Positions 40,931 through 42,187 of a stretch of DNA of 45,023 bases are shown piece by piece. Origin of the DNA: a bacterium (GTDB taxonomy: Bacteria > Pseudomonadota > Gammaproteobacteria > Nevskiales > OUC007); contig JAAFAL010000008.1 of NCBI GenBank assembly GCA_018222345.1, positions 1 to 45,023 on the forward strand, read 5' to 3'. How positions within the stretch are numbered: position 1 is the stretch's first letter; every line of letters starts with the position of its first letter. The notes below the pieces were generated by a model. The model did not search any database, was not told where the DNA came from, and saw only the letters and a list, made by a program, of their open reading frames with translations. A program made the translations under genes and the position numbers.

Positions 40931-41878
40931 ATGTCTCGTATCTCATTTTTCAAGAAGACACCGAGCTTCGATTTCCTTGGCAAGCGCAAGCTGTGGCTGG
41001 CGGTCTCGGCAGTAGTGATTGCTGTCAGCCTGGGCAGCCTGGCGACCAATTCGCTGAACTTTGGCATCGACTTCACCGGCGGTGTGCTGGTCGAAGTGGG
41101 CTACAACGGCCCCGCCGACCTCGACGCCGTGCGCAATGACCTGTCCGCCGGCGGCTTCGGCGAAGCAACGGTGCAAAACTTCGGCACTGCGCAAGACGTG
41201 CTCATCCGCATGGCGCCGCAGGATGGCAGCACCGACAAGGTGTCGAATGAAATCCTCGCAGCGCTGGCCGCCAACGGCAACGCACCCGACATGCGCCGGG
41301 TGGAATTTGTCGGCCCGCAAGTGGGCGAAGAGCTGACCATCAGCGGCGCTCTGGCCACCATGGTGGCGCTGGTACTGATTTTTGCTTACGTCTGGTTTCG
41401 CTTCCACTGGAAGTTTTCCGCAGGCGCCGTCGCGGCTTTGACGCACGACGTGATCATCACGCTGGGCGTGTTCTCAATCTTGCAACTGCCATTTGACCTC
41501 ACGGTGCTGGCGGCCCTGCTGGCGGTGATCGGTTATTCGCTCAACGACACCATCGTGGTGTTCGACCGCTGCCGCGAGAACTTCCGCCGCAGTTCGGTGG
41601 GTGGCTCGGTCGAGACCATCAACCGTGCCATCAACGAGAACCTGTCACGCACGCTCGTCACCAGCTTGACCACCTTGCTGGCGCTGCTGGCATTGCGCCT
41701 GTTCGGTGGCGAGGCTATGGCGGGCTTTTCGACTGCGCTGATCGTCGGCGTGATCATCGGAACGTATTCGTCGATCTATATCGCCAGCCCGGTGAGTTTG
41801 GCGCTGCGCATCGTCCGCGATGACGTCATGCCGCAGGCCGACGACAACCCGCGTGGCGACGACGGGGCTGTGGTGTAG
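40931..41878 (+). CDS. secF: SecF, proton-driven Sec translocase subunit
   Basis: 315 residues, six membrane helices. FGIDFTGGVLVEVGY near the start and the signature VIGYSLNDTIVVFDRCREN in helix 4 are visible. It starts eight bases after secD. The stop codon TAG (41876-41878) shares its last two bases with the left end of the large inverted-repeat element. Confidence 0.96.
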   Translation: MSRISFFKKTPSFDFLGKRKLWLAVSAVVIAVSLGSLATNSLNFGIDFTGGVLVEVGYNGPADLDAVRNDLSAGGFGEATVQNFGTAQDVLIRMAPQDGSTDKVSNEILAALAANGNAPDMRRVEFVGPQVGEELTISGALATMVALVLIFAYVWFRFHWKFSAGAVAALTHDVIITLGVFSILQLPFDLTVLAALLAVIGYSLNDTIVVFDRCRENFRRSSVGGSVETINRAINENLSRTLVTSLTTLLALLALRLFGGEAMAGFSTALIVGVIIGTYSSIYIASPVSLALRIVRDDVMPQADDNPRGDDGAVV

Positions 41879-42149
41879 GGAAGCTCTGCTCGAATCGCGC
41901 GGCCGCGCCGCAGACCTTTCTGGCTCGCTCGCAAGGCAAATGGAGTGAGATGTGGTCATTCCCCATGAACGACATTTAACGCCGCGAGCGGGCCAGAAAG
42001 GCCCGGCCCCGCAGGGGTTCGGCCTGAAATGCGCTGCTGACTGCGTTGCCTGGCTTGGCCTTGCAATAAGCAGGGCGCTGCGCCAAGCGCCTTGCATCAG
42101 CGCATTTCAGGACTCGAACGCGGTCGTGCGATTCGAGCAGAGCTTCCCT
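41877..42149. repeat. 273-bp branched inverted-repeat element (cloverleaf-like)
   Basis: The 309-base gap between secF and the esterase gene is almost wholly this element. Its ends are perfect 22-bp inverted repeats (41877-41898 and 42128-42149), extended inward by nine more pairs with two G-U, making a 31-bp stem. Inside are three hairpins in order: 41915-41932 with 41984-42001 (18 pairs, one G-U), 42003-42022 (CCCC/GGGG core, loop GCA) and 42023-42036 with 42098-42111 (perfect 14 bp). There is no coding frame of note and no evident target duplication. Either a MITE-like mobile repeat or a structured RNA. Confidence 0.85.
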
Positions 42150-42187
42150 GGCGCATCCAAGCGCAACCAGTGCGCGAACCGACTGAC

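Follow-up and report, generated by a model that had tools for sequence, protein, structure and literature searches.

The 273-base element that lies directly downstream of secF is very probably a member of an ancient, widely distributed superfamily of MITE-like non-autonomous transposons, which insert at TA and whose ends would be used in trans by IS5-family transposases. It is located in the window, the whole stretch of 45,023 nucleotides analysed here, which is contig C64 of a 3.0-Mb genome that is 98% complete. Elements of this kind are repeated, occupy sites that are empty in relatives, duplicate a TA, share terminal sequence with IS5 elements of Azotobacter and Halomonas, are biased towards stop codons and carry a conserved core.

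Anatomy and fold of the window copy

The element spans positions 41877-42149, with secF on one side and an esterase-like gene on the other, each encoded on the + strand. Its features are listed below, where R1 is a covariance model of the ~88-nt hairpin module.

40931..41878, + strand: secF, upstream, with its stop codon completed by the element (TIGR00966, E 9.9e-97; PF02355)
41876..41877, no strand: left target TA (duplicated target), comprising T and the A of the secF stop TAG; the TA duplication is seen at sister insertions
41877..41907, + strand: left terminal inverted repeat and outer stem (22 bp perfect, 31 nt at 94%)
41915..42002, + strand: alpha arm, a hairpin module with a conserved CAAGG / ACGC internal loop (R1 match, 87.8 bits)
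42007..42017, + strand: small central CCCC/GGGG hairpin, from sequence and fold
42023..42111, - strand: beta arm, an inverted second copy of the hairpin module (R1 match, 68.1 bits)
42119..42149, + strand: right terminal inverted repeat and outer stem, from paired-arm comparison
42149..42150, no strand: right target dinucleotide, which reads TG and is probably a decayed TA, judged by comparison with copies L002, L004, L007 and L010
42188..43051, + strand: alpha/beta-hydrolase (esterase-like) gene, downstream (PF20434, E 2.5e-41)

A first-pass annotation of the sequence had described the 22-bp ends (41877-41898 and 42128-42149) as exact reverse complements, which they are, and the outer arms pair over 31 nt at 94%. 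The cloverleaf that it proposed for the RNA form is borne out by the inner arms, in which 41915-41932 pairs with 41984-42001 (18 nt, 94%) and 42023-42039 with 42095-42111 (17 nt, 94%), by the pairing of CCCC at 42007-42010 with GGGG at 42014-42017, and by a single-strand fold of -183 kcal/mol (z = -13.5), which none of 200 shuffles equalled. The left end also supplies the last two bases of the secF stop, as had been claimed; the gene ends at 41878 and its stop TAG occupies 41876-41878. Both large hairpins correspond to one ~88-nt module, present in inverted orientation to each other, and the overall layout of ~270 bp is terminal inverted repeat, alpha(+), mini-hairpin, beta(-), terminal inverted repeat.

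Copies in the same genome

The first-pass annotation could not tell the copy number and had called for a search. This search revealed 12 full-length members or relatives of the window's subfamily with 77-85% identity, plus fragments at contig ends, and 42 modules genome-wide with R1, including at least five elements with different ends. About half of the copies lie in the opposite orientation and align end to end after being turned. A second subfamily, ~95% identical internally, has the same layout and carries the end TAGGGCCTGTTCACACTATTTG instead of TAGGGAAGCTCTGATTGAATC. The two subfamilies in this one genome share a common layout and have distinct ends, and together they amount to ~20 elements, fragments included. 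Several copies, the window copy among them with its right-side TG, are missing a clean TA at one of their borders, and some have decayed or retain a single end.

Contigs C3, C83, C112, C120 and C213 terminate within element copies. The repeat probably breaks the assembly at these contig ends and the true copy number may be higher. Three solitary 20-bp ends with 0-2 mismatches and no second end were also found (L060:1501, L061:1501 and L062:2032, on C183, C1 and C170); they are possibly deletion remnants, and inspection by eye revealed no transposase beside them. Other variants of the family include single-arm versions of 173-199 bp (L136, L137, L103, L046 and L102), additional small palindromic inserts within the arms of L007, L013, L138 and L140, for example around AAATATTT or GGCCGGGCCGCGTTCGG, and an isolated arm module that lacks terminal repeats (L257, G000:C178:7398-7484) and sits directly downstream of an apparent tRNA-Val gene (anticodon by eye).

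Empty sites and IS5-type ends

Flanks were joined across the insertion and compared with sister species. In A. beijerinckii, an insertion that reads CCAGTC-TA-[element]-TA-CGCC is empty in two relatives, which have CCAGTCTAG, and in A. chroococcum the arrangement T-TA-[element]-TA-AGG corresponds to GTTAAGG in one relative with an empty site. The TA duplication is directly readable at these two insertions. Two more sites are empty in relatives that are too divergent for an exact reading. For the P. aeruginosa plasmid, the search found a relative for half of the locus only and no clean empty site.

The ends match those of IS5-family elements. A. chroococcum carries an IS5-family element of ~861 bp, TAGGGCCTGTTGACGTTTCG..CGTCAACAGACCCTA, whose protein is an NF033580 IS5 transposase, and the ~861-bp IS5 elements of A. 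chroococcum and Halomonas have 18-20 terminal bp in common with the cloverleaf elements of the same genus. A. vinelandii contains a related 843-bp IS with a less exact end match than in A. chroococcum; the Halomonas match is at genus level. No internal similarity was detected between the cloverleaf elements and the matching IS5 elements beyond the terminal 18-24 bp, which ruled out an internal-deletion derivative of an IS5 element. The TA target had first suggested an IS630-type MITE, an idea abandoned once the ends proved to match IS5.

A. vinelandii has both an IS copy and a cloverleaf copy at the same point past the 3' end of IS630 copies. One IS5 and two cloverleaf copies (L134, L139 and L148) have a common left flank, GTGTTGAGAYAC^TA, which in A. 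vinelandii lies at the 3' end of an IS630 transposase gene; in Azotobacter this flank is an insertion hotspot common to both kinds of element.

In the window's own genome, a protein search did not find an IS5 transposase related to those of Azotobacter, and an end-pattern search did not find an autonomous IS with the AGGGAAGCTCTG end; the terminal matches to autonomous IS come from the genomes named above. We infer the partner of the window's subfamily: a related IS5-type transposase, absent from view in the assembly, would have moved the window copy.

By the features examined, the element is MITE-like. It is ~270 bp long, has no transposase gene and is bounded by an outer stem of ~20-36 bp, and two insertions of the family display both target duplication and empty sites, with the window copy reading TG on its right side. 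A non-autonomous mobile repeat, the first of the options offered by the first-pass annotation, is supported by the copy number, the IS5-type ends, the presence on plasmids and the empty sites with their duplicated TA. The likely mechanism is that IS5-family transposases recognise the element ends in trans, with insertion at TA, mostly within YTAR, and duplication of the TA.

Insertion into stop codons

Of 68 elements, 30 have a target TA that belongs to the stop codon of an adjacent gene; 26 of these stop codons now read TAG, and the window copy at secF is one such case. Among 710 intergenic TA dinucleotides from the same flanks, 10.3% are in stop codons (p = 8e-13, with gene calls from a simple ORF scorer and incomplete independence among related copies). 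Because the element end starts with G, insertion into the TA of TAA or TAG would rebuild TAG and leave the upstream gene intact. This rebuilding, combined with purifying selection, would explain why many copies are located at operon-internal stop codons.

Distribution and conserved core

R1 matched 71 of the 85 genomes of the order, covering all 21 genera. Across the class, 369 genomes were sampled and 99 gave a match, ~83 of them with a best E < 1e-6 (the E-values are rough). Exact-pattern matches occur in Azotobacter, Solimonas, Nevskia, Steroidobacteraceae, Marinobacterium, Erythrobacter and Novosphingobium. Many Gammaproteobacteria and some Alphaproteobacteria harbour unannotated relatives that fold in the same way. 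Copies are also present on plasmids of A. chroococcum, P. aeruginosa PA83 and Halomonas, at places where no feature is annotated, the Halomonas record being barely annotated as a whole. An Rfam search, judged by gathering score and E-value threshold, gave no credible match, and the literature searched contained no description of this element family.

The order alpha(+), mini-hairpin, beta(-) is repeated in Azotobacter, which belongs to a different order of bacteria, and the ~270-bp size and single layout are constant across the class, with stem sequences that vary. A long outer stem is present in 17 of 18 class-wide loci, most with a TAGGG start; element ends mostly begin with TAGGG and some with TAGAG. 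When 47 modules from many genomes were aligned, CAAGG and ACGC-G proved nearly invariant and fell in internal loops, while the stems varied, and 15 of 17 consensus pairs have two-sided changes. A plain MITE needs its ends only, and a core conserved among distant bacteria is unexpected; the element is unusual in this nested, conserved, class-wide core.

Pairing of the arms and alternative readings

Covariation between the arms is very strong, but DNA-level pairing or arm-to-arm correction would account for it equally well. Standard pairs fill 94.8% of pair cells in the own-genome alignment, and two-sided changes affect 41 of 102 pairs, compared to 12.2 in shuffles (0 of 500 reached this value). 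RNA pairing tolerates G-T (as G-U) and does not tolerate A-C. Isolated stem mismatches across the 68 elements are nevertheless symmetric on the alpha strand (G-T 83 vs A-C 77) and, for the 48 co-directional insertions, on the mRNA-sense strand (60 vs 56), contrary to the tolerance of G-U on the transcribed strand that a functional RNA would show. The earlier suggestion that T-G and G-T changes within the arms signal selection for RNA structure is therefore not upheld. Since mismatches are symmetric and neither strand folds better (sense and antisense energies do not differ), single copies do not look maintained as RNA, although this test reads mostly changes after insertion and is compatible with RNA selection on active source copies. 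The paired changes look DNA-level.

These data bear on a quite improbable alternative, in which the element is a host-beneficial structured RNA or an mRNA processing or stability element, NEMIS- or ERIC-like, kept at operon junctions since its RNA fold controls the neighbours. The location of 48 of 68 copies between co-directional genes, the highly stable and strongly covarying fold and the conservation of unpaired arm bases would suit such a role; the equality of G-T and A-C, the occurrence of both orientations relative to transcription (28 and 17), insertion sites that vary among close species and the lack of an Rfam match speak against it. That the element is a chance or decayed repeat of no significance has a negligible probability, for while some copies are indeed degraded or one-ended, this reading is already refuted by copy number, range and covariation.

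Two further proposals address the core itself. Template switching within a quasipalindrome, a type of mutation known in E. coli (PMC7202029), may copy one arm onto the other with no selection for folding. We regard this as a serious possibility that falls somewhat short of probable; it concerns how the stems stay matched and is compatible with our main reading of an IS5-mobilised transposon. Private two-sided changes number 21 against ~0.5 expected from independent mutation, and among five copies that are ~95% identical, L225 alone has a T-A pair near its ends changed to G-C on both sides. Such private changes point to numerous source lineages or else to template switching between the arms. 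Copying leaves unexplained the conservation of unpaired loops between bacterial classes, as well as mobility. It is also possible, if on balance doubtful, that a protein recognises the hairpin core as single-stranded DNA or a cruciform, as in REP/RAYT systems, and that the IS5-like ends are only part of mobility. Invariant bases in internal loops of freely changing stems, a strand-symmetric pairing constraint, constant size across the class and the existence of single-arm versions fit such recognition, whereas the arms bear no similarity to the matching IS and the strand test reads mostly post-insertion mutations. Our main reading likewise supposes that the cloverleaf matters as folded DNA, single-stranded or cruciform, rather than as RNA. 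Combining these ideas, we put forward only tentatively, as a rather unlikely proposal, a class-wide selfish-DNA superfamily in which the folded two-hairpin core, and not the ends, is the conserved part, joined to IS5-type ends that vary by host (two in this genome), recognised as folded DNA and with arms matched by mutual correction.

Relation to known elements and significance

RUP of S. pneumoniae and similar IS630-type MITEs are likewise small, intergenic non-autonomous repeats with the ends of a resident IS and a TA target (PMC2229807), but RUP is 107 bp, confined to one species and paired with an IS630-type partner, whereas the cloverleaf element is ~270 bp with a nested two-arm core, IS5-type ends and many host genera. 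MITEAba12 resembles it in matching its coresident IS, ISAba12, at the ends only, in its constant length and in occupying chromosomes and plasmids, but is 113 bp, makes a 9-bp duplication and is found in one bacterial family, and the available part of its description mentions no cloverleaf core (PMC6382973). NEMIS/Correia and ERIC are also transcribed, folding inverted repeats at gene borders (PMC2229807); they are shorter, have different ends and have reported RNA effects, and an RNA-level constraint is unsupported for the cloverleaf element. REP/BIME sequences with RAYT transposases share inverted pairs of imperfect hairpins scattered between genes (PMC2817692, PMC3733652), but REPs measure 20-40 bp and carry GTAG or CGTC tags, in contrast to the long terminal inverted repeats and TA duplication here. 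The R200/R26 repeats of P. fluorescens are 320-352 bp long (PMC2718517). The NF033580 group of the IS5 family (ISPa67-like) shares the terminal 18-20 bp and the YTAR/TA target; the cloverleaf element differs in having no transposase gene and no similarity past the ends.

About a quarter of the sampled Gammaproteobacteria genomes thus carry a repeat without an Rfam name that is unannotated in the plasmid records checked, and its strong covariation alone is not proof of a functional RNA. The family provides natural replicates in which to ask why a parasite without genes would keep an elaborate fold, whether it is selection or copying that keeps the arms of a palindrome matched, and how the choice of target, here stop codons, renders insertions harmless.
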